From Massilia oculi (lineage in GTDB: Bacteria; Pseudomonadota; Gammaproteobacteria; Burkholderiales; Burkholderiaceae_D), in the NCBI RefSeq assembly GCF_003143515.1, contig NZ_CP029343.1, positions 2,790,001-2,854,000 on the forward strand: a stretch of DNA of 64,000 nt. Direction: 5' to 3'. How positions within the stretch are numbered: the stretch's first letter is position 1; every line of letters starts with the position of its first letter. This document shows, piece after piece, positions 46,457 to 58,427 of this stretch. The position numbers were made by a program, and so were the translations under genes. Below the pieces are notes generated by a model that was given only the letters and a program-made list of their open reading frames with translations, ran no database searches and was not told where the DNA came from.

Positions 46457-49231
46457 ATGCCGCGCCATCCCACCAAGCTCAAACTCACCGCCGCCATCCT
46501 GACCGGCGCCCTCCTGACCGTCGGCATGGCCGGCTGCAACCGGACCCAGTCGACCGAAACCCTGCTGGCGGAGGCGTCCGAGTACCAGCAAAAAGGCGAC
46601 ATCAAAGCTGCCCTGATCCAGCTCAAGAACGCCGTGGCGAACAGCCCGGAAGACGGCGAGGCGCGCCTGGCGCTGGGCACCCTGCAGCTGTCCACCGGCG
46701 ACAACGTGTCGGCCGAGAAGGAACTGGGGCGCGCGCGTTCGCTCGGCATCGCCGAGGAGCGGGTCTTGCCGCTGCTGGGCCAGACCCTGGCGCAGCAGGG
46801 CAAGTTCAAGGAAGTGCTGGAGCTGATCACGCCGGAGAAGGCCAAATCGGCCGCGCTGCTGTCGCTGCGCGGCGATGCATTTCTGGGCAGCGGCAAGCCC
46901 GACGAGGCCAAGCAGGCCTACGAGGCGGCCCTGGCCGCGAACGCCAATTCCGGCGATGCCCTGATGGGCCTGGCGCGCCTGTCCGCCGTACGCGGCGAGC
47001 GCGACGCCGCCCTCCTCTACGTCGACCAGGCGGTGGCCAAGGATCCGAAGAATCCCGAAGTCTTCATCATGCAGGGCGCGATGCTGCGTTCGATGAACAA
47101 GCAGGACGAAGCCCTGGCCGCCTACGACAAGGCGCTGGCGCTCAAGCCGGACCACCGTGGCGCCCACATCGAGAAAGCCTATATCGAGATCGCGCGCGGC
47201 AAGTTCGACGCGGCCAAGAAAGAAGTCGAGGCGGCGGAAAAGAATTCGCCGGGCAGCCTGCTGGTGGTGTACACCCGCGCCCTGTATGAATTCTCGCAAG
47301 GCAAGCACTCGGCAGCGAGGGATGCGCTGGCGAAGATCCTCAAGGTCGCGCCCAACCATTATCCGAGCATCCTGCTGGCCGGCGCTTCCGAGCTGCAGCT
47401 GGGCGGCACCCAGCAGGCCGAGCAGCACCTGCGCAAATACCTGGAAGCCAATCCGAACAACATCTATGCGCGCAAGCTGCTGGCCCAGGCCCAGCTCAAG
47501 AATGCCCAGCCGGCCGATGCCGCCGCCACCCTGGAGCCGGCCCTGAAGGCGGCGCCGCAGGATGCGCAGCTGCTGGCCCTGGCCGGCGAATCGTACATGC
47601 AGGTGCGCGACTTCGACAAGGCCAGCAACTACCTGCAGCAGGCGGCCACCCTGGCGCCGGAGGCGGCCGCCGTGCGCACCTCGCTGGGCCTGTCGCGCCT
47701 GGCCCAGGGCGACCAGGCGCGCGCGCTGAGCGACCTGGAAATGGCCGCCACGCTCGACCCGAAATCGCTGCAGGCCACGATGGCCCTGGTGCAGACCGAG
47801 ATGGGCATGAAGCGCTACGACAAGGCACTGGCCGCCGTCAATGCGCTCGAGAAGCAACAGCCTGACAGCGCGCAAGTGCAGCAGCTCAAGGGCGCGGTCT
47901 ATATGATGCAGGGCAAGAATGCGGAAGCACGCACCGCCTTCGAGAAGGCGCTGTCGCTGCAGCCGACCTTCCTGCCGGCGGTGACCAACCTGGCGCGCCT
48001 GGACGTGCAGGACAAGAAGCCCGATGCCGCCAAGGCCCGCTTCACCGCCTTCCTGGACAAGAACAAGGACAGCGTCGAGGCCATGACGGCGCTGGGCGAG
48101 CTGGCGATGCTGCAGAAGAACCAGGCCGAGGCCACGAGCTGGTTCGAGAAGGCCAGCAACGCCAATCCGAACGCCACTGCGCCGGCCCTCAAGCTCGGCG
48201 CGCATTACCTGGCCACCGGGCAGGCGCCCAAGGCCCTGGCGCTGGCGCGCAAGTTCCAGACCACCCATCCGACCGATGCCGGCGTGCTCGAACTGCTCGG
48301 CCAGTCGCAGGCCGCGAACAAGGACCTGAACGGCGCGCTGGACACCTACAGCAAGCTGGTCAACGTGCTGCCGAAGGCGCCCGGCGCCCAGCTGCGCCTG
48401 GCGCAAGTGCAATTGGCGCTGAAGAACGAATCGGCGGCCGCCACCCACCTCAAGCGCGCGGTCGATCTCCAGCCCGACTTCGTGCCGGCGCGCCTGATGC
48501 AGGTCGACCTGGCGCTGCGCGGCAAGCGTCCGGACGAGGCGCTGGCGGTGGCGCGCGAGCTGCAGAAGGCGGCGCCCAAGGCGCCGGTCGGTCACGTCAT
48601 CGAAGGCGACGTGCTGATGTCGCAGCAAAAATTTGCCCAGGCCCATCAGTCGTATGAAAAAGGCCTGGCCCTGGCGCGCTCGTCGGAACTGACGGTCAAG
48701 GTGATGCAGGCCATGCAGGCCGGCGGCAAGAGCAAGGAAGCGCTGGCGCGCGGACAGGCCTGGCTCGCCGCCCAGCCGGACGACGTGCGCGTCTCGCTGC
48801 TGGTGGCCGAGCTCAACCTGTCGGCCAAGGATTACAAGGGTGCCATCGCCAGGCTCGAGAACGCGCAGAAGCGCGCCCCCGAGCATCCGCTGGTGCTGAA
48901 CAACCTGGCCTGGGCCTACCAGCAGGTGAAGGATCCGCGCGCGCTGGCGACCGCCGAGAAGGCCTACAAGCTGGCCAGCGACAGCCCGGGCGTGATGGAC
49001 ACCCTGGGCTGGGTGCTGGTGGAGCAGGGCGACACCGCGCGCGGCCTGCCGCTGCTGCAGAAAGCCAGCAGCCAGGCGCCGAACGCGATGGAGATCCGCT
49101 ACCACCTGGCGCAGGCCCTGCACAAGAGCGGCGACAAGGCCGGCGCACGCCGCGAGCTCGACAAACTGCTGGCGTCGGACACGCCGTTCGCCCACGCCGA
49201 CGAGGCGCGCGCACTGCTCAAGACCTTGTAA
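46457..49231 (+). CDS. prsT: PrsT, PEP-CTERM system TPR lipoprotein
   Basis: 924 residues. The N-terminal lipobox VGMAGC (Cys27) is followed by about 20 or more tetratricopeptide repeats through the whole length (for example AEASEYQQKGDIKAALIQLKNAVANSPEDGEARLALG and KDYKGAIARLENAQKRAPEHPLVLNNLAWAYQQ). Length and architecture match PrsT (TIGR02917-type), which accompanies XrtA and the PrsK/PrsR two-component system. It probably scaffolds EPS or PEP-CTERM protein handling in the periplasm. It lies about 7.5 kb from the EPS export genes, with acyltransferase-like genes between. Confidence 0.92.
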   Translation: MPRHPTKLKLTAAILTGALLTVGMAGCNRTQSTETLLAEASEYQQKGDIKAALIQLKNAVANSPEDGEARLALGTLQLSTGDNVSAEKELGRARSLGIAEERVLPLLGQTLAQQGKFKEVLELITPEKAKSAALLSLRGDAFLGSGKPDEAKQAYEAALAANANSGDALMGLARLSAVRGERDAALLYVDQAVAKDPKNPEVFIMQGAMLRSMNKQDEALAAYDKALALKPDHRGAHIEKAYIEIARGKFDAAKKEVEAAEKNSPGSLLVVYTRALYEFSQGKHSAARDALAKILKVAPNHYPSILLAGASELQLGGTQQAEQHLRKYLEANPNNIYARKLLAQAQLKNAQPADAAATLEPALKAAPQDAQLLALAGESYMQVRDFDKASNYLQQAATLAPEAAAVRTSLGLSRLAQGDQARALSDLEMAATLDPKSLQATMALVQTEMGMKRYDKALAAVNALEKQQPDSAQVQQLKGAVYMMQGKNAEARTAFEKALSLQPTFLPAVTNLARLDVQDKKPDAAKARFTAFLDKNKDSVEAMTALGELAMLQKNQAEATSWFEKASNANPNATAPALKLGAHYLATGQAPKALALARKFQTTHPTDAGVLELLGQSQAANKDLNGALDTYSKLVNVLPKAPGAQLRLAQVQLALKNESAAATHLKRAVDLQPDFVPARLMQVDLALRGKRPDEALAVARELQKAAPKAPVGHVIEGDVLMSQQKFAQAHQSYEKGLALARSSELTVKVMQAMQAGGKSKEALARGQAWLAAQPDDVRVSLLVAELNLSAKDYKGAIARLENAQKRAPEHPLVLNNLAWAYQQVKDPRALATAEKAYKLASDSPGVMDTLGWVLVEQGDTARGLPLLQKASSQAPNAMEIRYHLAQALHKSGDKAGARRELDKLLASDTPFAHADEARALLKTL

Positions 49232-49381: not shown

Positions 49382-50059
49382 ATGAGGATGTTTATCGTGG
49401 ACGACGATTCGTACGGAATCCGGCTTACCGATACTTCGGATGGTCGTAACACGGCCAGTATGCTGATCAACAGGATGTATGCCTGGCGAGGCTACGCCGG
49501 AAATCACCAGCCAAGCAGCGACCCCAACCGCATCACCCTGACCGCCACCGACAAGGGCGACGTGGTCGGCACGCTCAGCATCGGCATCGATTCCGAGGTC
49601 GGCCTGATGGCCGACGAAATCTTCAAGGACGAACTCGATGCCCACCGTCGGCGCGGCGCCAAGCTGTGCGAATTCACCAAATTCGCCTTCGACCCTTCGG
49701 TGCGCTCCAAGACCGCGCTGGCCAATGTGTTCCACCTGGCCGTGATCTACGCGCGCGACATGCATGGTTGCACCGACATCGTGATCGAGGTCAATCCGCG
49801 CCACCGCCGCTTCTACGAGCGCATGCTGGGCTTTCGCAAGGAAGGCGAGCTCAAGACCAACCCACGGGTCGACGCGCCGGCTTACCTGTTGCGCGTGAAC
49901 CTGCAATACGTCACCGAGCAGATCGCGCACTTCGGCGGCACCTGGGCCGCCGATGGCGAAACGGAAGAACGTTCTTTCTATCCATATTTCTTTTCACCAC
50001 GCGAAGAGCGTGGCATTATCAATCGCCTGCTGCGCATGGATGAGTCGCACCCGGCATGA
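49382..50059 (+). CDS. FeeM-like N-acyl amino acid synthase, paralog 1
   Basis: 225 residues, GNAT-like fold of the FeeM/autoinducer-synthase kind. Key stretches are RNTASMLINRMYAWRGYAGN, NRITLTATDKGDVVGTLSIG, CEFTKFAFDP and the strong signature DIVIEVNPRHRRFYERMLGF. Related enzymes join acyl-ACP chains to amino acids such as tyrosine. The C-terminal tail FSPREERGIINRLL is shared with paralog 2 at 52925-53656 and may be a docking element. The start is uncertain: no ribosome site precedes ATG 49382, whereas GTG 49397 has GAGG nine bases upstream. It is followed by the ThiF-like gene after 54 bases. Presence beside PEP-CTERM genes suggests a role in surface lipid or signal formation. Confidence 0.8.
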   Translation: MRMFIVDDDSYGIRLTDTSDGRNTASMLINRMYAWRGYAGNHQPSSDPNRITLTATDKGDVVGTLSIGIDSEVGLMADEIFKDELDAHRRRGAKLCEFTKFAFDPSVRSKTALANVFHLAVIYARDMHGCTDIVIEVNPRHRRFYERMLGFRKEGELKTNPRVDAPAYLLRVNLQYVTEQIAHFGGTWAADGETEERSFYPYFFSPREERGIINRLLRMDESHPA

Positions 50060-50113
50060 CGCCCGCGCCGCATCCCCGGCCGGTCGCCGTTTCACTTCTG
50101 TCCCGAACCATCA

Positions 50114-50992
50114 ATGACTAAACCGTTCAACTACGAACAGGCATTTTCACGCAATATCGGGTGGGTCACCCCCGCCGAGCAACAACAGCTGCGCGGCAAG
50201 TGCGTGGCCATCGCCGGCGGCGGCGGCGTCGGCGGCGTGCACCTGCTGACCCTCGCCAGGCTCGGCGTGGGCCGTTTCCGCATCGCCGATTTCGACACCT
50301 TCGACATCGCCAACTTCAATCGCCAGGTCGGGGCCATGATGTCGACCGTCGGCCAGCCGAAGGCCGAGGTGCTGGCGCGCATGGCGCGCGACATCAACCC
50401 CGAGATCGAGATCGAGATCTTCCCGGACGGCGTCCACGAGGGCAATCTCGACGCCTTCCTGGCGGGAGCCGACCTGTACGTGGACGCCCTCGATTTCTTC
50501 GCCTTCGACGCGCGCCAGCAGACGTTCGCCGCCTGCGCCCGGCTCGGTATTCCGGCCACCACCGGTGCGCCGCTGGGCATGGGAACGGCCTTGCTCAACT
50601 TCATGCCGGGCAAGATGACCTTCGAGGAGTATTTCGGCTGGGGCGACCTGCCGGAGCAGGAAAAGGCGATCCGCTTCGTGGTCGGCCTGGCGCCGGCCGG
50701 CCTGCACCGTCCCTATCTGATGGTGCCGGGCTCGGTCAACCTGGCTGAACGCCGCGGGCCGTCGACCTTCATGGCCTGCCAGCTGTGCGCCGGCGTATGC
50801 GCCACCGAAGCGCTCAAGATCCTGCTCGGCCGCGGAGACGTGCTGGCTGCGCCCTGGGGCATGCAGTTCGACGCCTACCGCAACAAGCTCAAGCGCACCT
50901 GGCGGCCGGGCGGCAACCGCCATCCGATCCAGCGGCTGATGCTGGCGATCGGGCGCCGCCAGTTCGCGCGCATGGCGGCAGCCGTGCGCTGA
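50114..50992 (+). CDS. ThiF/E1-like adenylyltransferase
   Basis: 292 residues. The nucleotide-binding loop GGGGVGG lies at 35-41. The acidic DFDTFD at 59-64 and NFNRQVGA with Arg70 follow, as does Lys83, the standard E1-family ATP/Mg set. A CxxCxxxC group (Cys222, Cys225, Cys229) stands where a zinc site or thioester cysteine could be. No ubiquitin-like or ThiS/MoaD partner is encoded nearby. It lies right after a FeeM-like acyl amino acid synthase, which suggests that it activates a carboxylate (an N-acyl amino acid or a protein C-terminus). This is inference. Confidence 0.82.
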   Translation: MTKPFNYEQAFSRNIGWVTPAEQQQLRGKCVAIAGGGGVGGVHLLTLARLGVGRFRIADFDTFDIANFNRQVGAMMSTVGQPKAEVLARMARDINPEIEIEIFPDGVHEGNLDAFLAGADLYVDALDFFAFDARQQTFAACARLGIPATTGAPLGMGTALLNFMPGKMTFEEYFGWGDLPEQEKAIRFVVGLAPAGLHRPYLMVPGSVNLAERRGPSTFMACQLCAGVCATEALKILLGRGDVLAAPWGMQFDAYRNKLKRTWRPGGNRHPIQRLMLAIGRRQFARMAAAVR

Positions 50993-51118
50993 GCGCCTGC
51001 CGCTTCCGGGCGGCTTACCAGAGTCAAAGGCGCTGTACCCGTTCGATGTGGATGAGCATTGAACTGCTGTGCTGGCCTCCGGATCCGCAACAGCATCGAA
51101 TGGGTACGGCGCCAAGTC

Positions 51119-51156
51119 AAAAGCCACTGCCGGATCGCTCCGGCAGTGGCTTTTTT
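51119..51156. terminator. Bidirectional terminator between thiF-like gene and pepA
   Basis: AAAAGCCACTGCCGG-ATCG-CTCCGGCAGTGGCTTTTTT has a stem of more than 12 bp with T6 on the plus strand and a shorter T-run on the minus strand. It separates two convergent genes. Confidence 0.9.
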
Positions 51157-51197
51157 CACGCTGCTGACGTCAGGCCTGCCAGGCAGGCCCGTGGTTA

Positions 51198-51998
51198 TCA
51201 GGCAGCTTTCTTGTTGCGGCGGCGGGCAGCGTACAGGCCCAGCATGCCCAGGCCCAGCAGGCCGACCGATGCCGGCTCAGGCACTTCGGCGGTGTTGGCG
51301 AAGACCACGTCCAGCGAACCGTTGATTTCCTGGGTGCCGGTCGGGTTGAAGTTGTTCAGCTGACCCGACTGGAACGACAGGTTGTAGAACGGGTTTGGCG
51401 AGGTGAAGAATTCCTTGCCGAAACCGACCAGAGCGAAGGTCGAGCTCGCACCGAAGCTGCCGCAGTTGATGCCGCTTGGGCCGCAGGTCGGCAGGGTTGG
51501 GTCCAGCACGCCGAAGCCCGACAGTGGATCGCCTTCGGCCAGCAGCACGTCGTCGCCGCTGTTGCCCACGCTAACTGGCGTAGCGCCGCTGCCTGGCATG
51601 GTGAAGGTCGAATCCAGGTTGGCGTCCAGGTACATCGCCAGACGGCCGCTGCCATCGTTGAAACGGAACACGTTGGTGCCGTTCTCGACGCCATAGGTGC
51701 CCGAGGCGGTGTACAGCGCGTACAGGCCGTAGTCGTTGTTCAGGCCGGTACGGGTGACCGGCGTCGTGCCGCCGTTGCCGACGAACTGGCCGGCGTTCCA
51801 CACCAGCGACACGTTGAAGGTGCCGTCGGTGTTGAAGGTAGCGATTTCGTTGTAGTTGCCGGTGATCTTGTCAGCGGTGAATTCACGACCATCGTATTCC
51901 ACGGTGAACGGATTGAAGTTGGCGGCCTGGGCGGCGGCGCCGAACATCGAGGTTGCAGCGATTGCGCAAGCGATAATGGTCTTCGATACTGCTTTCAT
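51198..51998 (-). CDS. pepA: PEP-CTERM surface protein, flocculation-type (PepA-like)
   Basis: 266 residues from ATG 51998 with CAGGAGA upstream. A signal peptide (ACAIAATSMFGAAAQA) precedes the repetitive beta-rich body FTVEYDGREFTADKITGNYNEIATFNTDGTFNVSL. The C-terminus is VPEPASVGLLGLGMLGLYAARRRNKKAA, i.e. the PEP motif, a hydrophobic helix and a basic tail, the XrtA sorting signal. The body resembles the flocculation-associated PEP-CTERM protein PepA family. A sigma54-type promoter lies 48 bases upstream. It would be cut by the exosortase and exported to the EPS matrix. Some Cys (GPSGINC) suggest a disulfide. Confidence 0.85.
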   Translation of the reverse strand: MKAVSKTIIACAIAATSMFGAAAQAANFNPFTVEYDGREFTADKITGNYNEIATFNTDGTFNVSLVWNAGQFVGNGGTTPVTRTGLNNDYGLYALYTASGTYGVENGTNVFRFNDGSGRLAMYLDANLDSTFTMPGSGATPVSVGNSGDDVLLAEGDPLSGFGVLDPTLPTCGPSGINCGSFGASSTFALVGFGKEFFTSPNPFYNLSFQSGQLNNFNPTGTQEINGSLDVVFANTAEVPEPASVGLLGLGMLGLYAARRRNKKAA

Positions 51999-52045
51999 CT
52001 TGGATCTCCTGGTTGTAGGGTTTGGTACTAACACCCTCTATCTAA

Positions 52046-52060
52046 GCAACCATCGTGCCA
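52046..52060 (-). promoter_or_regulatory. Sigma54 (-24/-12) promoter of pepA
   Basis: On the minus strand: TGGCACGATGGTTGC, matching the TGGCAC-N5-TTGC consensus exactly. Transcription would start near 52034, giving a short leader before pepA. PEP-CTERM genes are known to be controlled by the PrsK/PrsR system with sigma54. Confidence 0.8.
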
Positions 52061-52179
52061 GCTAACTCACTTCCTTTAAAATCAGTCACTTAGATGACTA
52101 TTTCGTAGAAGAAATTACAACACTGTAAAAGATCCCGACACCTGTGTTTAAAAAATCTCGCGCCGCTGTGGGCGCCGTC

Positions 52180-52845
52180 CTACAGGGGTTTCCGCAACAC
52201 TACATTCCAGGTGTTTCCGGACTTAAATTCGCTGGCGATATCATAGCCGGCGGCCAGCACTTTGGCGCGCAGCTCCTCGATATGGAAGGGGCTGTACAGG
52301 ATGCCCTTGCGGATGCCCCAGTCATTGATCTTCTGCGCCGCCCAGCGCAGTGGGGCGAAGCCTGACGGATACAGCAGCACGTTGGCGGCCAGGGTCCCGC
52401 CCGGCTTGAGCACGCGCAGGATGTCGCGCAGCGCGCCGTCGACGGTCGGGAAGCAGTGGATCGAGTTGGCTATATTGGCGGTATCGAAGCGGTTGTCGGC
52501 GAACGGCAGCTGGGCCGCATCGGCATGCTGCACCTCGACCAGCGGATTGCCGGCGAAGCGGCGCTTGGCGCCGGCCAGCATCGATGGGGCATAGTCGATG
52601 CCGGTCACTTTGACCGGCGGCAGCTTGCGGCGGCGGCGCCAGTTCAGGACCATTTCGAGCAGGGTGCCGGTGCCGCACGCCACCTCCAGGTGGTCGGGTC
52701 CGAAGTTGGGCCCGAAGAAGCGCATCTGCGTGCCGATGGTGCTGTTGTAGGCAAAGGTCAGAATGAAGAAGCCACGCAGGTCGTACCACCACGGTTCGGA
52801 TGAATAGGCTTCGGCGATTTCATCCCTGGTCTTGCCTGTCGTCAT
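52180..52845 (-). CDS. Class I SAM-dependent methyltransferase
   Basis: 221 residues. Motif I is LEVACGTGTLLEM, motif II IDYAPSMLAGAKRRF, then the DAAQLPFADNRFDTANIANSIHCF and LRVLKPGGTLAANVLLYP segments of the UbiE/Methyltransf_11 type. No substrate domain is recognisable. The AYSSEPWWYDLRGFFILTFAY start suggests lipid or quinone-like substrates, but this is weak. It follows paralog 2 of the FeeM-like enzyme after about 80 bases in the same direction, so it may modify the acyl amino acid product. Confidence 0.85.
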   Translation of the reverse strand: MTTGKTRDEIAEAYSSEPWWYDLRGFFILTFAYNSTIGTQMRFFGPNFGPDHLEVACGTGTLLEMVLNWRRRRKLPPVKVTGIDYAPSMLAGAKRRFAGNPLVEVQHADAAQLPFADNRFDTANIANSIHCFPTVDGALRDILRVLKPGGTLAANVLLYPSGFAPLRWAAQKINDWGIRKGILYSPFHIEELRAKVLAAGYDIASEFKSGNTWNVVLRKPL

Positions 52846-52924
52846 GGAGCGTCCTCATTGGATTGAAGTAAAGCGGGAAATATAGGGCGTTAATGAACCG
52901 CAGGCAAGCGTGGATCGATTTGGC

Positions 52925-53656
52925 TCAGCCCAGCTGGCGCAGGCGGTTGACGATGCCCGCCTCCTCGCGTGGCGAGAAGAACCACGGGAACAGCGAGCGT
53001 TCGCCCACCGCCTTGTCCTGCATGCCGCCCCACTTGGCCACCTGTTCGGTGCCGAATGCGGTGTCGACGCGCAACAGGACCGCCGGCGCCTGCACCCGCG
53101 GATTGGGGCGCGACTCGCACACGGTCTGGAAGCCGAGCATGGCTTCGTAGAAGCGCCGATGGCGCGGATTGACTTCGATGAAGATGTCCCTGCAATCATT
53201 CAGGTCGCGCGCATAGATCAGGGCCACGTGGAATAACGAGGCCAGCACCGCCTTGGACTTGACCGCCGGGTCGACCGCCAGCTTGGTGATCTCGCATACC
53301 CGCCCGGCGCCGCGGCGCGCATCGATGCAATCCTTGAACACCTGGTCGGCCAGCAGGCCGATCTCGGAATCCAGGCCCAGGCTCAGGGTGCCGAACACCT
53401 GGCCGCGGTCGGACGCGGTCAGCGTGATCCGGTTGGGGTCGCTGTGCACCTGGTGATTGCCGCTGTAGCCGCGCCAGGAGTACATCTTACTGATGAGCAT
53501 ACTGGCGGAATTGCGCTGGGAGTCGATGTCGGCCGCGCGTATACCGAATACGCGCTCGTTGATGGCGACGTCGATGATGCTGGGTCCGTCGGAAGCGGCA
53601 ACCTCGTCGCCACCCGGACCGGCGCAGAAGGCGGCCGGCGCTAATGTCTCGATCAT
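52925..53656 (-). CDS. FeeM-like N-acyl amino acid synthase, paralog 2
   Basis: 243 residues from ATG 53656, chosen because GGAG stands seven bases upstream; the ATG at 53662 overlaps the ribosome site. Same family as 49382-50059: RNSASMLISKMYSWRGYSGN, NRITLTASDRGQVFGTLSLG, CEITKLAVDP, DIFIEVNPRHRRFYEAMLGF and the tail FSPREEAGIVNRL. It differs by a longer N-terminus. Both paralogs face each other across thiF-like, pepA and methyltransferase genes. A product of the N-acyl amino acid type is expected. Confidence 0.8.
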   Translation of the reverse strand: MIETLAPAAFCAGPGGDEVAASDGPSIIDVAINERVFGIRAADIDSQRNSASMLISKMYSWRGYSGNHQVHSDPNRITLTASDRGQVFGTLSLGLDSEIGLLADQVFKDCIDARRGAGRVCEITKLAVDPAVKSKAVLASLFHVALIYARDLNDCRDIFIEVNPRHRRFYEAMLGFQTVCESRPNPRVQAPAVLLRVDTAFGTEQVAKWGGMQDKAVGERSLFPWFFSPREEAGIVNRLRQLG

Positions 53657-53976
53657 GGTCATTCTCCAGGCAGCCCGGCACGTCGTGTGCCGGCGGCGTT
53701 CCTGATCATCATAGCATTATAAATTACAAAATATCAATTGTATTAACTAGGAGTATTTATTTCTTTGACATTCTGAATGTCGCCGCATATGGACGATAGC
53801 AGCTTCGGCAGGCACTGCGGCGCGCGGGGACAAGATATCGTGGGGAAAGTGACCGGCTGCACTGGTCGTGCCGGTTGCAGAAGGGAAAGCTGCGGCAAGG
53901 TGCCGCCGTGGCGAACGCCGCGGGGCGACCGGCGCGGGGCGACCGGCGCGTGGGCCGGTCGGGCAGGATGAACGGC
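53657..53976. other. Spacer between FeeM-like paralog 2 and epsE-like gene
   Basis: 320 bases. An AT-rich part (about 53716-53770) contains ATTATA at 53716-53721, a perfect -10 box (TATAAT) on the minus strand for the FeeM-like gene. The remainder is GC-rich with a repeated GGGGCGACCGGCGCG motif (about 53924-53950) and holds no gene or clear terminator. Confidence 0.5.
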
Positions 53977-54597
53977 TTAGAAGAAGCTCTCGGGGATGAC
54001 CAGAATGTCGCCCGGGCGCATCATGACATTGGCCGAGATATCGCCATCCTTGATCAGGTCGTCGAGACGCACATTGATTTTTTCCTGCTTGCCCTCGACG
54101 GTGCGCACGATGCTGGCCTTGTTACCCGAGGCGAACTCGGTGACGCCGCCCACCGCGATCAGCACGTCCATCAGCGACATCTCGCGGCGATACGGCAGCG
54201 CCTGCGGGCGCGCCGCCTGGCCGATCACACGGATCTGTTCGTTGAAGTTGCCGACGAAGTTGGTCACGACCACGGTGACCACCGGCTGCTGGATGAACTG
54301 GGCCAGGGCCTGCTCGATGTCGCGCGCGAGCTGGGTCGAGGTCTTGCCGGCTGCCGGCAGGTCTTCGACCAGCGGGGTCGTGATCTTGCCATCCGGCCGC
54401 ACCGGGACCGACATCGACACTTCGGGATTGCGCCAGACAATTATGTTGACGGCATCGCCCGGCCCGATCAGGTAGTCTGGGTTGATCGGCGCCAGCGCGG
54501 CGGTGCTGGGCGGTACCGGAGTGGAACAGCCGCCCAGCAGCAGCATGCAAGCGGCGGCGCCAGTTGCCAAAAGGTTCTTCATGGTCTTCGTCATCAT
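53977..54597 (-). CDS. XrtA-system polysaccharide export lipoprotein (Wza-like)
   Basis: 206 residues from ATG 54597; the adjacent in-frame ATGs at 54594 and 54606 are alternatives, and AAGGGG fits 54597 best. The lipobox LLLGGC is followed by the polysaccharide-export domain (YLIGPGDAVNIIVWRNPEVSMSVPVRPDGKITTPLVEDLPAAG) and a SLBB-type part (IRVIGQAARPQALPYRREMSLMDVLIAVGG). The short form without the full Wza C-terminus is normal for PEP-CTERM export proteins (TIGR03027-type). It acts in the outer membrane and periplasm as the EPS exit component. It is inverted relative to the rest of the EPS cluster. Confidence 0.9.
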   Translation of the reverse strand: MMTKTMKNLLATGAAACMLLLGGCSTPVPPSTAALAPINPDYLIGPGDAVNIIVWRNPEVSMSVPVRPDGKITTPLVEDLPAAGKTSTQLARDIEQALAQFIQQPVVTVVVTNFVGNFNEQIRVIGQAARPQALPYRREMSLMDVLIAVGGVTEFASGNKASIVRTVEGKQEKINVRLDDLIKDGDISANVMMRPGDILVIPESFF

Positions 54598-54690
54598 CGC
54601 GTTCATCCCCTTCGCGCCTACCGGCCATCCCTGGTGGAATAGTGTTCGACGTGAATCAAAAATTGTAATTTCGCCATCACGGCCTGCGCT

Positions 54691-54718
54691 ATTGTAGCGC
54701 AGACCGACCCGGCGACAA
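54691..54718 (-). promoter_or_regulatory. Possible sigma70 promoter of the export lipoprotein gene
   Basis: On the minus strand: TTGTCG, 16 bases, TACAAT. It lies about 95 bases before the start of the export gene. Confidence 0.45.
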
Positions 54719-54779
54719 GCCATGCACAATTGAAATACTTGCATGTTGCTGCCTTACGCCAGCGCGCCATCCGCTGATG

Positions 54780-55547
54780 CTAGCGGCTCAGCAGTTCCTG
54801 CACGTGGCGCACCGGAATGGCATAGGTGATGCCGCTGGGGGTCGAGATGGCCGATTCCTTCAAGCCTTTCACGAACACCATATTGATCACGCCCACCACC
54901 TGCCCCGTCGCGGGGTCGTACAACGGCGAGCCGCTGTTGCCCGGATAGGCGGTGCCGTCGAGCTGGTAGATGCTGAACGGCGTGCGCTGCAGCCGCGCCA
55001 CGGCGCGCGCATCGAGGCGACGCGCATTGAACGAAGGCTGCATCACCGGCGTGATCGCGGCCAGCAGCGCGCGGTGGGTGGCCGGGTGCAGGCCCAGCAC
55101 CATGCCGAGCGGGAAGCCGGTGAAGGCCAGGTCCTGCCCCTCGGCCGCCCGGTCCGCGTCACCCAGGCGCAGGGCCGGCAGCGGCGCGCCGTCCAGGCGC
55201 AGGTGCGCCAGGTCGTGCTCGCGATCCAGGGCCACCAGTTGGGCCTGGCGGAAGCGCACCCCGGCGCCGTCTGGCAGCACCACGCCGAGCTGCTCCATGC
55301 GGGCCGCATCGAGCTTGTCCGGCACCACGTGGGCATTGGTGATCACGCTCAGACCGTCGCCGACCACGAAACCGGTGCCGCTGAACACGATCGCCGGGCT
55401 GCGCGTCTGCAACTGGGTGCCGACGCCCACGATCGACGGCTTGACCGCCGCCACCGTCTGCGGCAGCGTCGCCGCTTGCAGACCGGCTCCCGCCCACCAT
55501 AGCAGCGCGCCGGCAGCCACTCGTATTGAAAACAATCGTCGCGTCAT
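54780..55547 (-). CDS. Trypsin-like (S1) serine protease, exported
   Basis: 255 residues from ATG 55547 (MTRRLFSIRVAAGALLWW). The signal peptide ends near LQAA. The catalytic triad is His73 (NAHVV), Asp112 (REHDLAHLRL) and Ser205 in PGNSGSPLY. It is of the HtrA/DegP protease-domain type but has no PDZ domain. It lies between the export lipoprotein and the chain-length gene and is separated from the former by about 180 bases. It might process EPS-system or PEP-CTERM proteins in the periplasm; this is inferred from position. Confidence 0.88.
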   Translation of the reverse strand: MTRRLFSIRVAAGALLWWAGAGLQAATLPQTVAAVKPSIVGVGTQLQTRSPAIVFSGTGFVVGDGLSVITNAHVVPDKLDAARMEQLGVVLPDGAGVRFRQAQLVALDREHDLAHLRLDGAPLPALRLGDADRAAEGQDLAFTGFPLGMVLGLHPATHRALLAAITPVMQPSFNARRLDARAVARLQRTPFSIYQLDGTAYPGNSGSPLYDPATGQVVGVINMVFVKGLKESAISTPSGITYAIPVRHVQELLSR

Positions 55548-55953
55548 CGAACCTTCACAATCTTGAGGTAGTTGTAACAGGGCTGAGGCAATCGTACGGC
55601 CCCTTTCCATTTTTAAACATTACAATAAGCTTCTTTGAATTTCAGCAACTATTTGAAGAACCGCGCGGCCTGAGGTCAACGAACCGAACCCTGGCAGCGA
55701 GGTGGATTCGCTTCGCGAAATACAACATGCGAATTCTTCAGTTGTTTGCGATAATGCAACAACCGCCATGATGCAATTTGTTTAACATCTTCTTATTGCA
55801 GTGCGGAACATGTGTTGCAAACCGATGGCATCGGTGACCACGAATCGCTGCATCTCTTAACCCTCAATTGCAATTGATTAGGGTACAAGCGATCATGCAC
55901 ATTGTTTATTTGTTGAGCCTGCAGCCCAGGCCCTGACCGACGAGATCGACACG
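55548..55953. other. Divergent promoter region of the XrtA EPS cluster
   Basis: A 406-base AT-rich spacer between the protease gene (minus) and the chain-length gene (plus). A perfect 14-bp palindrome TCAATTGCAATTGA stands at 55864-55877, about 75 bases before the chain-length start, a likely regulator site. No sigma54 motif and no convincing gene are seen; an 81-codon plus-strand frame starting at 55526 lacks coding character. Confidence 0.5.
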
Positions 55954-57480
55954 ATGGCTGAAATTACAACCCAGATACTTCACCTCCTCAAGGCCATCGG
56001 CAAGTACCGCTGGCATGCAGTCGTCATCACCTGGGTGGTGGCGCTGGCCGGCTGGGGGGTGGTGTATTCGCTTCCCAACCAGTACGAGGCATCGGCGCGC
56101 GTCTACGTCGACACCCAGACCATTCTCAAGCCGCTGCTGTCGGGCATGACCACCCTGCCGAACCTGAACCAGCAGGTGCAGTTCATGCGCCGTACCCTGA
56201 TGAGCCGCCCGAACGTCGAACGCGTGGCGCGCGAACTCGACCTCGACGCCCGCACGCGCACTCCCAAGGAGTTCGACCAGATGGTCGACAATATGATCGA
56301 GAAGCTCAAGATGGCAGGCACCGGCCGCGAGAACATCTATACCATCAGCTACACCGGCACCAGCGCACGCGAGAGCAAGGACGTGGTGCAGGCCTTCCTG
56401 ACGATCTTCGTGGAGGGCAGCTTCGCCGGCAAGAAGCAGGACTCCGAAAAGGCGGTCCAGTTCATCGACGAGCAGATCCGCAGCTATGAAGAACGCCTGG
56501 CCGCGGCCGAGAACTCGCTCAAGGAATTCAAGATCAAGAACATCGGCATGCTGCCGCGCGCCGGCGCCGACTATGGCGCACGCCTGATGTCGGCCACCGA
56601 AGCCCTGAACCAGGCGCAGCTCGACCTGGCCGAGGCCGAACAGGCGCGCAATGCGATCCGCAGCAGGATGTCGGGCGACACCAGGGGTGGCGCCAGCGTC
56701 CCGGTGCTGCGCGACCCGGCGCTGGACGAGCGCATCGCCGCCGTCAACAAGAACCTGGACAGCCTGCGCACCCAGTACACCGAACAGCACCCCGACATCG
56801 TCGCCAACCGCCGCCTGCTCGAGCAGCTGATGGAGCGCCGCGCCGATGCCGCCAAGAATCCCGTGCCGAGCTCGGACCCGGGCGCCAGCTTCAGCCCCAT
56901 GCTGCAGCAGCTGACCGTGCAGCTGTCCGATGCCGAGGCGCGCGTCGCTTCGCTGCGGGCGCGCGTCAACGAATACAGCGACCGCGTGGCGCGCCTGCGT
57001 GGCCAGAGCGAACTGGTGCCGGAGGTCGAAGCCCAGCTGGCCCAGCTCAACCGCGATTACGAAGTCAACCGCCAGAACTACCAGCGCCTGGTCGAGCGGC
57101 GCGAATCGGCCAAGCTGTCGGGCGAGGTGTCCTCGGCCACCGACATGCTGACCTTCCGCGTGATCGATCCGCCGATCGCGCCGGCCGTGCCGACCGGTCC
57201 GAACCGCCTGCAGCTGTTCTCGCTGGTGTTCGTCGGCGCCCTCGCCGCCGGCCTTGCCGGCGCCCTGCTGCTGAGCCAACTGCGCCCGACCTTCCTCAGC
57301 CAGGCCTCCCTGCGCGAAGCCACCGGCCTGCCGGTACTGGGTTCGGTGAGCATGAACTGGACCGCCGAGCAGACCGTGCTGCGCAAGCGCCGCCTGGTCG
57401 CCCTGGCCGCTTCGGTGTTGCTGTTGTTCGGCGCCTATGGTGCCGGCGTCGCCGCCATCCTGGTCCGCCCCGCGATGTAA
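55954..57480 (+). CDS. XrtA-system polysaccharide chain-length determinant (Wzz/GNVR)
   Basis: 508 residues. The N-terminal membrane helix (HAVVITWVVALAGWGVVYSL) and Wzz domain (NQYEASARVYVDTQTILKPLLSGM) are followed by long periplasmic coiled coils of about 170-380. The GNVR segment and a second membrane helix stand near residues 420-440, and a third hydrophobic stretch closes the protein. It lacks a kinase domain, which is in the next gene. It sets EPS chain length and co-polymerises with the tyrosine kinase. This matches the TIGR03007-type protein of PEP-CTERM EPS loci and is the first gene of the plus-strand EPS operon. Confidence 0.92.
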   Translation: MAEITTQILHLLKAIGKYRWHAVVITWVVALAGWGVVYSLPNQYEASARVYVDTQTILKPLLSGMTTLPNLNQQVQFMRRTLMSRPNVERVARELDLDARTRTPKEFDQMVDNMIEKLKMAGTGRENIYTISYTGTSARESKDVVQAFLTIFVEGSFAGKKQDSEKAVQFIDEQIRSYEERLAAAENSLKEFKIKNIGMLPRAGADYGARLMSATEALNQAQLDLAEAEQARNAIRSRMSGDTRGGASVPVLRDPALDERIAAVNKNLDSLRTQYTEQHPDIVANRRLLEQLMERRADAAKNPVPSSDPGASFSPMLQQLTVQLSDAEARVASLRARVNEYSDRVARLRGQSELVPEVEAQLAQLNRDYEVNRQNYQRLVERRESAKLSGEVSSATDMLTFRVIDPPIAPAVPTGPNRLQLFSLVFVGALAAGLAGALLLSQLRPTFLSQASLREATGLPVLGSVSMNWTAEQTVLRKRRLVALAASVLLLFGAYGAGVAAILVRPAM

Positions 57481-57506: not shown

Positions 57507-58427
57507 GTGAGCATTATCGAAAAAGCCGCCCGCCGCATCGACCAGCAGCGCCAGAACGCCGCCCCCGCCAACCCTGCCGCCACCATCGTGCCGGTCGAGC
57601 CGCCGCTGGTCGACGCGCCGGCCGCCGTGCTGGTCGACGTGCCGGCCGAGCCGGCCCCGACGCCGGACCTGGCCGCGGGCAACGCGTCCGCCCCGGCGCG
57701 CACCCGCCGCGTCGAACTCGACCTCTCGCGCATGCGCGAGCTGGGCATGGTCACCGCCGCCGGCGGCCGCACCAACCTGCTGGAAGAATTCCGCATCATC
57801 AAGCGCCCGTTGCTCAAGCGCGCCTTTGCCGAGCGCGGTCCGAAGGACAACCCGGCCAACCTGATCATGATCACCAGCTCGCTGCCCGGCGAAGGCAAGA
57901 CCTATTGTGCGATCAACCTGGCGATGAGCATCGCCATGGAGCTCGACCACACCGTGCTGCTGGTCGACGCCGACGTGGCGCGTCCGTCGGTCCTGCGCAC
58001 GCTCGGCCTGCCGGCCCAGCGCGGCCTGATGGACATCCTGGTCGACGATTCGCTCGAACTGCCGGACGTGATCCTGCGCACCAACGTCGACACCCTGGCC
58101 CTGCTGCCGGCCGGCGCCGCCTCCAACGCCGCCACCGAGCTGCTGGCCAGCTCGACGATGGCCGCCATGCTGACCGAGCTGGCCAACCGCTATCCGGACC
58201 GCGTCATCATCTTCGACTCGCCGCCGCTGATGCTGACCACCGAGGCGCGCGTGCTGGCCAGCCACATGGGCCAGATCGTGGTGGTGGTGGAAGCCCAGAC
58301 CACCACCCAGCATGCGGTCAAGGAATCGCTGCAGCAGCTGGAAGGCATGAGCAACGTCAATCTCGTCTATAACAAGACCAGGGACATCCCCGGCATCGAA
58401 GAAACGTATGACTATCATTACGGCTAA
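57507..58427 (+). CDS. XrtA-associated tyrosine autokinase (BY-kinase)
   Basis: 306 residues. The N-terminal region is Ala/Pro-rich. The BY-kinase core shows Walker A SSLPGEGKT near 130, Walker A' LLVDADVARPSV and Walker B VIIFDSPPLML. The C-terminal tail contains tyrosines (EETYDYHYG) as autophosphorylation sites. Together with the preceding chain-length protein it forms the split Wzc-like pair. The GTG/ATG at 57507 follows AAGGAG. Confidence 0.92.
   Translation: MSIIEKAARRIDQQRQNAAPANPAATIVPVEPPLVDAPAAVLVDVPAEPAPTPDLAAGNASAPARTRRVELDLSRMRELGMVTAAGGRTNLLEEFRIIKRPLLKRAFAERGPKDNPANLIMITSSLPGEGKTYCAINLAMSIAMELDHTVLLVDADVARPSVLRTLGLPAQRGLMDILVDDSLELPDVILRTNVDTLALLPAGAASNAATELLASSTMAAMLTELANRYPDRVIIFDSPPLMLTTEARVLASHMGQIVVVVEAQTTTQHAVKESLQQLEGMSNVNLVYNKTRDIPGIEETYDYHYG

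Follow-up and report, generated by a model that had tools for sequence, protein, structure and literature searches.

What could a bacterium make with two N-acyl amino acid synthases that face each other across a ThiF-like enzyme inside an exopolysaccharide (EPS) locus? The locus lies in a stretch of 64,000 nucleotides (nt), hereafter the window, from the 5.84 Mb genome of Massilia oculi, and holds two FeeM-type synthases, a standalone ThiF-type enzyme, a gene for a flocculation-associated PEP-CTERM protein (PepA) and a UbiE-like methyltransferase (MT). Our answer, held with moderate confidence, is that it encodes a form of the acyl-oxazolone pathway that employs a methyltransferase, within an XrtA/PEP-CTERM exopolysaccharide locus. 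In described pathways, an N-acyl amino acid synthase, a ThiF cyclase and a nitroreductase-type (NTR) flavin desaturase (FDO) together make acyl-oxazolones, as in TyzABC (PMC10404671) and TrzAS (PMC12856293); OxzAB (de Rond et al. 2021, as cited) is likewise an N-acyltransferase plus ThiF-FDO acyl-oxazolone system. Of the features of an acyl-oxazolone synthetase, the window locus has the ThiF motif and the adjacent synthase, and lacks an FDO fused or adjacent to them. The methyltransferase, METHYLTRANSFERASE, occupies the place of the FDO in the locus. An earlier note on this DNA overlooked the absence of this usual third gene; the five genes that it listed are real and were all found where it had placed them, as follows.

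49382..50059, plus strand: FeeM1, N-acyl amino acid synthase (PF21926, 187.1 bits, cut-off 27).
50114..50992, plus strand: standalone ThiF-type (TcdA/TyzB-like) cyclase or adenylating enzyme (PF00899, 144 bits, cut-off 28; NF006077/PRK08223, 463 bits, cut-off 266).
51198..52034, minus strand: pepA, flocculation-associated PEP-CTERM protein, floc_PepA (NF033554, 197 bits, cut-off 80).
52045..52060, minus strand: sigma-54 -24/-12 promoter-like site of pepA (0 mismatches).
52180..52845, minus strand: UbiE-like class I methyltransferase of a ThiF-linked family (PF08241, 77 bits).
52925..53662, minus strand: FeeM2, second N-acyl amino acid synthase (PF21926, 177.9 bits, cut-off 27).

The exchange of FDO for MT recurs across related genomes. 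In the order Burkholderiales, 51 of 300 genomes contain a ThiF above the NF006077 cut-off, and we annotated the surroundings of all 51 loci, several of which lie on short contigs, counting FDO, FeeM, MT and PepA with our own profiles at fixed thresholds. An FDO is fused to or lies near ThiF in 40 of these loci, the MT is found in 7, none has both, and 4 have neither (among them L096, on one of the short contigs), giving a Fisher p of 2.9e-6 if kinship is ignored. The FDO is absent from all 7 MT loci, the window locus included, even at E<=1. We also considered a distant FDO elsewhere in the window genome and rejected it: the 4 PF00881 nitroreductases of this genome all lie away from the locus and score at most 26 bits against the FDO profile, and a search with FDO profile A3 gave no match at E<=1e-15 among the 32 best of 48 candidates. 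The five FDO-type controls all scored 466-527 bits, two of them (G013 and G028) having seeded the profile. Scoring in each genome was limited to the best candidates (9 in the MT search and 32 in the FDO search), so that weak or odd matches could escape.

Within the genus, where 47 of 62 genomes have a ThiF of the NF006077 type, the division is complete. Considering 44 further loci together with the window locus, L062 and L068, 35 of the 47 are FeeM-ThiF-NTR loci and 12 are FeeM-ThiF loci with PepA-MT-FeeM2, with none having both and none neither; prsT lies on the FeeM side in all 47 and flanks the swap site upstream. Within the genus only 2 changes of this label are required, whether the ThiF or the PrsT tree is used. 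A tree of 120 ThiF domains requires 19 changes of the MT label, of which no fewer than 8 are forced by well supported branches, compared with 40.5 in shuffles. As far as can be read from these trees, which were built quickly and contain many weak branches, MT labels cluster on the ThiF tree, yet the tailoring partner is exchanged repeatedly. Two NTR-type loci of the genus (L198 and L220) fall inside the MT-type part of the ThiF tree; there the NTR gene faces ThiF instead of lying downstream of it, as if regained.

The methyltransferase gene is in turn closely tied to that of ThiF. Searched over the 300 order genomes, an MT profile found it in 7, exactly those with the MT-type ThiF loci; since the profile was built from those same 7 loci, the informative part is that no other good matches appeared. 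The same profile recovered 75 MT loci from named genomes of Pseudomonadota, Planctomycetota, Bdellovibrionota, Acidobacteriota, Kiritimatiellota and Myxococcota, of which L101, L129, L143 and L146 belong to genomes of the order loci. A ThiF of the same subfamily lies within 10 kb of the MT in 62 of the 75 (median gap 178 nt; at most 300 nt in 37 of the 62), and in L122 the two are joined within one 565-residue frame. Among the best 120 of 1523 relatives of the L122 protein, we found 7 MT/ThiF fusions (5 MT-ThiF and 2 ThiF-MT, P0121 being a near-copy of the query), 2 MT-ThiF-FeeM proteins, 79 ThiF-NTR proteins and 32 ThiF proteins alone; 6 fusions were checked against Pfam. The MT-ThiF-FeeM fusion is the counterpart of the FeeM-ThiF-NTR protein PRK14852. 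Because of this adjacency and, above all, because of the MT-ThiF and MT-ThiF-FeeM fusions, which are the strongest evidence, acylation, ThiF activation or ATP-dependent cyclisation, and methylation very likely constitute one pathway. A chance neighbourhood of MT and ThiF was rejected on the 7/7 co-location in the order, the proximity in 62/75 loci and the fusions. The earlier note had suggested a short pathway in which an acyl amino acid maker works together with an E1-like enzyme and a methyltransferase, and both the clustering across phyla and the fused proteins speak for it. In one methanotroph metagenome-assembled genome (MAG), the MT is split across two overlapping frames (L168:9980-10649, plus strand), by a frameshift or an assembly error.

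For the ThiF enzyme, family scores and structure comparison both point to a cyclase. NF006077 scores first, followed by PRK14851 and PRK14852, which are the ThiF-NTR and FeeM-ThiF-NTR fusion proteins, and the nearest solved structure is TcdA, ahead of ThiF and MoeB. Using ATP, TcdA cyclises an N-carbamoyl amino acid with loss of water; it differs from the enzyme studied here in acting on tRNA (as the ct6A dehydratase). The ATP site is intact, with GxGGxGG (the G35-G41 loop), NFNRQ (N69, R70), K83, D124 and D127 invariant among 20 aligned members. The same alignment has no invariant cysteine, and neither zinc CxxC pairs nor a catalytic cysteine is conserved in it. The CxxCxxxC group to which the earlier note had drawn attention is not a family feature: its third cysteine is missing in both aligned Massilia relatives (L062 and L068), L061, L091, L092 and L093 each lack at least one of the first two, and we rejected it as a metal site. 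Also rejected was a role as E1 for a ubiquitin-like or sulfur-carrier protein, given the lack of a conserved cysteine and scores far under the cut-offs for MoeB (TIGR02355, 61.5 bits, cut-off 376.6) and ThiF (TIGR02356, 83.8 bits, cut-off 275.3). The window genome has 3 ThiF-family matches, one of the others being TcdA itself (L003, 307.6 bits, cut-off 304). The ThiF of the window begins 54 nt after the end of FeeM1 and shares 97% identity with its counterpart in Massilia timonae CCUG 45783.

The two synthases share 60% identity across 211 residues and have the same FSPREE-x-GI-x-NRL ending, confirming the long common core and identical tail described before. The tail is not confined to these two, however: an FSPREE-like stretch occurs in 70 of the 156 FeeM matches of the examined loci, near-copies counted in. 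The sole solved relative that structure comparison found for FeeM1 is FeeM 2g0b. In the order, FeeM is present at E<=1e-20 in 56 of 300 genomes, including 47 of the 51 that have ThiF, and lies within about 10 kb of ThiF in 41 of the 51 loci; the two families therefore do not lie apart in most genomes, the outcome that the earlier note had named as counting against its reading. Whole-genome tests in the MT set, here and below, used 50 of the 75 MT loci, and a PF21926 match, in some cases weak, was found in 47 of the 50 tested genomes. Of the 4 PF21926 matches in the window genome 3 are strong, and the third strong paralog is distant (L044:9654-10319, minus strand), with porin-like and CysB-type regulator genes nearby. 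A planctomycete MAG (G706, the genome of L142) has 34 FeeM-family matches in 6.8 Mb, of which several lie in open frames 750-840 residues long. On two FeeM-type synthases (L119:11593-13152, minus strand, 519 residues, and L139:7639-8814, minus strand, 391 residues) we noticed a C-terminal PilZ domain, barely above the Pfam cut-off, which suggests c-di-GMP control of N-acyl amino acid synthesis.

From these families we propose the following chemistry. FeeM1 and FeeM2 would join a long acyl chain, probably from acyl carrier protein, to an amino acid, probably an aromatic one. ThiF would adenylate the free carboxylate of this product, and the amide oxygen would close a saturated 5(4H)-oxazolone, as in TyzB and TrzS. 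The UbiE-like MT may then methylate the enolised ring, most simply at C4 (yielding an alpha-methyl, quaternary centre) or at O5, replacing the removal of the Calpha and Cbeta hydrogens by the FDO. The resulting lipid, or a ring-opened N-acyl alpha-methyl amino acid, would go to the cell surface and act with EPS and PepA in the floc or biofilm matrix. A saturated oxazolone has an acidic C4 hydrogen and enolises to an electron-rich hydroxyoxazole, akin to the substrates of UbiE-type enzymes. We infer that the MT and FDO genes exclude each other because methylation at C4 (or O5) and Calpha-Cbeta desaturation compete for the same position or hydrogen; methylation of an ester, phenol or aromatic ring would not explain this exclusion. 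For TrzS, cyclisation is reported to precede desaturation, and the saturated oxazolone accumulates if desaturation is limited (PMC12856293); the same paper shows that the ring is opened by acids and alcohols. The most specific version of this proposal, in which the MT C-methylates the saturated oxazolone at C4 and so gives N-acyl alpha-methyl amino acid lipids acting with PepA and the XrtA exopolysaccharide, is a tentative possibility. If true, it would be an enzymatic counterpart of the chemists' azlactone alkylation, and one lipid scaffold would be tuned by swapping a desaturase for a methyltransferase at a fixed chromosomal site. The MT form of the locus predicts a methylated lipid class in Massilia, Noviherbaspirillum, Rubrivivax, Thioalkalivibrio, Methylobacter and others.

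Where such a product might act is indicated by the flanks of the locus, which carry a complete XrtA/PEP-CTERM EPS gene set (prsT, export, chain length, kinase and XrtA).

46457..49231, plus strand: prsT, XrtA/PEP-CTERM TPR protein (TIGR02917, 884 bits, cut-off 312).
53977..54744, minus strand: XrtA-system exopolysaccharide export protein (TIGR03027, 244 bits).
54780..55610, minus strand: trypsin-like peptidase.
55954..57480, plus strand: XrtA-system chain length determinant (TIGR03007, 581 bits).
57507..58427, plus strand: XrtA-associated tyrosine autokinase (TIGR03018, 275 bits).
G000:C1:2854278-2855852, just outside the window: XrtA (TIGR03109, 339 bits, cut-off 208).

The earlier note had asked about co-occurrence with exosortase, which proved strong. 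An exosortase is present in 120 of the 300 order genomes (115 above the cut-off), among them 50 of the 51 that have ThiF but 70 of the remaining 249, so that in this sample the locus ties an acyl-oxazolone-type cyclase to exosortase/exopolysaccharide genomes. In the MT set, 40 of 50 tested genomes have one. The single ThiF genome without an exosortase match, G013 (L059), keeps FeeM-ThiF-NTR. Because of the 50/51 co-occurrence, service to the exopolysaccharide/PEP-CTERM matrix is probably the likeliest role for the lipid product. The literature offers related observations: a link between FeeM-type synthases and PEP-CTERM/exosortase genes has been published (Craig et al. 2011, as cited); mutants of Methylomonas LW13 in a PEP-CTERM-linked N-acyl amino acid synthase (NAS) lost a distinct polysaccharide band, which complementation restored (PMC11072679); and the pepA gene of Aquincola depends on RpoN and, when overexpressed, raises bound EPS and lowers soluble EPS (PMC9850573). 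The biological role of acyl-oxazolones, themselves described only recently, has been called a major unresolved question (PMC12856293), and the 12 MT-type and 35 FDO-type genomes provide a within-genus comparison in which the role of exosortase-linked N-acyl amino acids can be asked directly.

PepA accompanies the MT form of the locus. It is found near the MT in 7/7 order loci, compared with 1/40 NTR loci, and in 36 of the 51 non-Massilia MT loci that have ThiF; in the genus, at a 60-bit line, it is present in 9/9 new MT loci and in 4/35 NTR loci. A sigma-54 site with at most 2 mismatches lies upstream of 54 of 64 pepA genes, of 0 of 92 MT genes and of 32 of 1000 random places, these counts, like that of the FeeM tail, containing near-copies, from the four genomes shared with the order loci and from loci that recur in the genus set (L097-L100, L102, L103 and L141). 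A scan of the window gave 9 matches with at most 2 mismatches, where 15.06 are expected by chance, and the pepA site is the sole one with 0 mismatches. Because this perfect site ends at 52045, the true start of pepA is probably the ATG at 51998, not the GTG at 52034. We considered that the MT might act on PepA; PepA was not seen in the MT loci of Bdellovibrionota and Planctomycetota, and ThiF is kept in 62 of the 75. Because the MT keeps ThiF more than it keeps PepA, and because pepA has its own sigma-54 site and the MT has none, PepA seems to be a client or neighbour rather than the substrate.

Several other readings have to be weighed against a methylated oxazolone. Most simply, the MT could methylate the carboxyl group of the N-acyl amino acid to a methyl ester: such esters occur in bacteria, earlier studies found no candidate gene for their synthase (PMC11580390), and the MT has a general class I fold. 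We consider this unlikely, as carboxyl methylation would not require activation by an E1-like enzyme, yet MT and ThiF lie side by side and are even fused, and ester formation leaves the MT/desaturase exclusion unexplained. Saturated oxazolones are also acyl donors, and the acyl adenylate or oxazolone made by ThiF could be passed to an amine on a polysaccharide, lipid or PEP-CTERM protein, with the MT modifying the conjugate. The presence of exosortase in nearly all ThiF genomes and of PepA near so many MT genes would fit this conjugation, which we nevertheless find quite improbable: no acceptor or transferase was found kept with the set, though the neighbours were not all clustered, and four MT-ThiF loci of Planctomycetota and Bdellovibrionota (L142, L149, L159 and L163) lie in genomes without an exosortase match and have no PepA nearby.

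Methylation of the aromatic ring or phenol of an N-acyl tyrosine has been proposed for the stieleriacines, which carry a C- or O-methyl group on tyrosine and whose loci hold an MT, a ThiF and a nitroreductase (PMC12479983). Applied to the window, with ThiF acting independently, this seems decidedly improbable, since it leaves the MT/FDO exclusion at one site unexplained; the authors of that study, moreover, judged the UbiE-clustering MT a less likely candidate for O-methylation. That the genes are merely unrelated ones collected in an EPS island, as XrtA islands gather many genes, is very unlikely. Fusions in both orders, the triple fusion and the tie of MT to ThiF in exosortase-free genomes as well largely refute it for MT, ThiF and FeeM; for PepA, with its own sigma-54 site, it may still hold.

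A number of observations weigh against our preferred reading of a methylating acyl-oxazolone pathway. According to PMC12479983, no acyl-oxazolone has been observed for the N-acyl tyrosines of Massilia, Thalassotalea and Stieleria, and in Stieleria neptunia an NAS, a UbiE-clustering MT, a ThiF and a nitroreductase are reported to occur together. By our own profile, FeeM lies near only 35 of the 75 MT loci. The exclusion is not strict: an FDO is also present in 2 of the 75 MT loci (L119, of a weak type, and L140), and among 53 distinct MT genomes it scores at least 140 bits in 4 and 60-87 bits in 9, with none in 40. In a phylum sample of 398 genomes, ThiF was found in 16, and the 12 new loci comprise 0 with MT, 4 with an FDO above the line, 1 with a divergent FDO (L188) and 7 with neither; because of these 7, ThiF can evidently act without FDO and MT alike. 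Finally, the MT is UbiE-like and not UbiE (66.7 bits against UbiE/MenG TIGR01934, cut-off 158.4), and its nearest folds, phosphatidylethanolamine N-methyltransferase and Coq5, do not settle whether it methylates C, O or N.

The earlier note knew of no described pathway of this composition. In fact, the acyltransferase-ThiF pair is the core of the published acyl-oxazolone pathways (PMC10404671, PMC12856293), and what appears to be undescribed is the methylating version of the locus. TyzABC of Mycobacterium tuberculosis, which makes tyrazolones, is alike in having a separate synthase and a standalone ThiF that are adjacent and partly on opposite strands (PMC10404671); its third enzyme is the flavin desaturase TyzC, whereas the Massilia locus has an MT, a second synthase and an exosortase/EPS setting. 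OxzAB and TrzAS share the N-acyltransferase and the ThiF domain, and differ in that their ThiF is fused to the FDO and no MT is described with it. The N-acyl (dehydro)tyrosine clusters of Massilia kyonggiensis, Thalassotalea and Stieleria (PMC12479983) share NAS and ThiF, one of them within the same genus, and the S. neptunia cluster also has a UbiE-clustering MT adjoining ThiF; they differ in the presence of a nitroreductase, and the main text of that paper does not use the words "exosortase" or "PEP-CTERM". The loci of Craig et al. 2011 resemble ours in the FeeM-type synthase beside XrtA/EPS genes, the passages citing them mentioning the synthase only, without ThiF or MT.

Seven loci (L179-L183, L186 and L190) represent a third form, with neither FDO nor MT by our own profiles. 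Their neighbours, where checked, are exosort_acyl/autoinducer-synthase-like acyltransferases (L179, L180, L190), PrsT (L179), PEP-CTERM genes (L181, L182, L186) and floc_PepA (L183). Behind the ThiF of L188 lies an open reading frame of 356 residues (L188:4085-5155, minus strand) that has no Pfam match, scores 53 bits against the FDO profile and gives weak NCBIfam matches to Rv1355c-type and Acg-type families; it is probably a very divergent FDO. The trypsin-like peptidase on the flank of the window locus perhaps takes part in PEP-CTERM protein processing, and such a peptidase also lies near a ThiF of the same subfamily at L181:8675-9439 (minus strand) and L182:8745-9500 (minus strand), in loci of other families.

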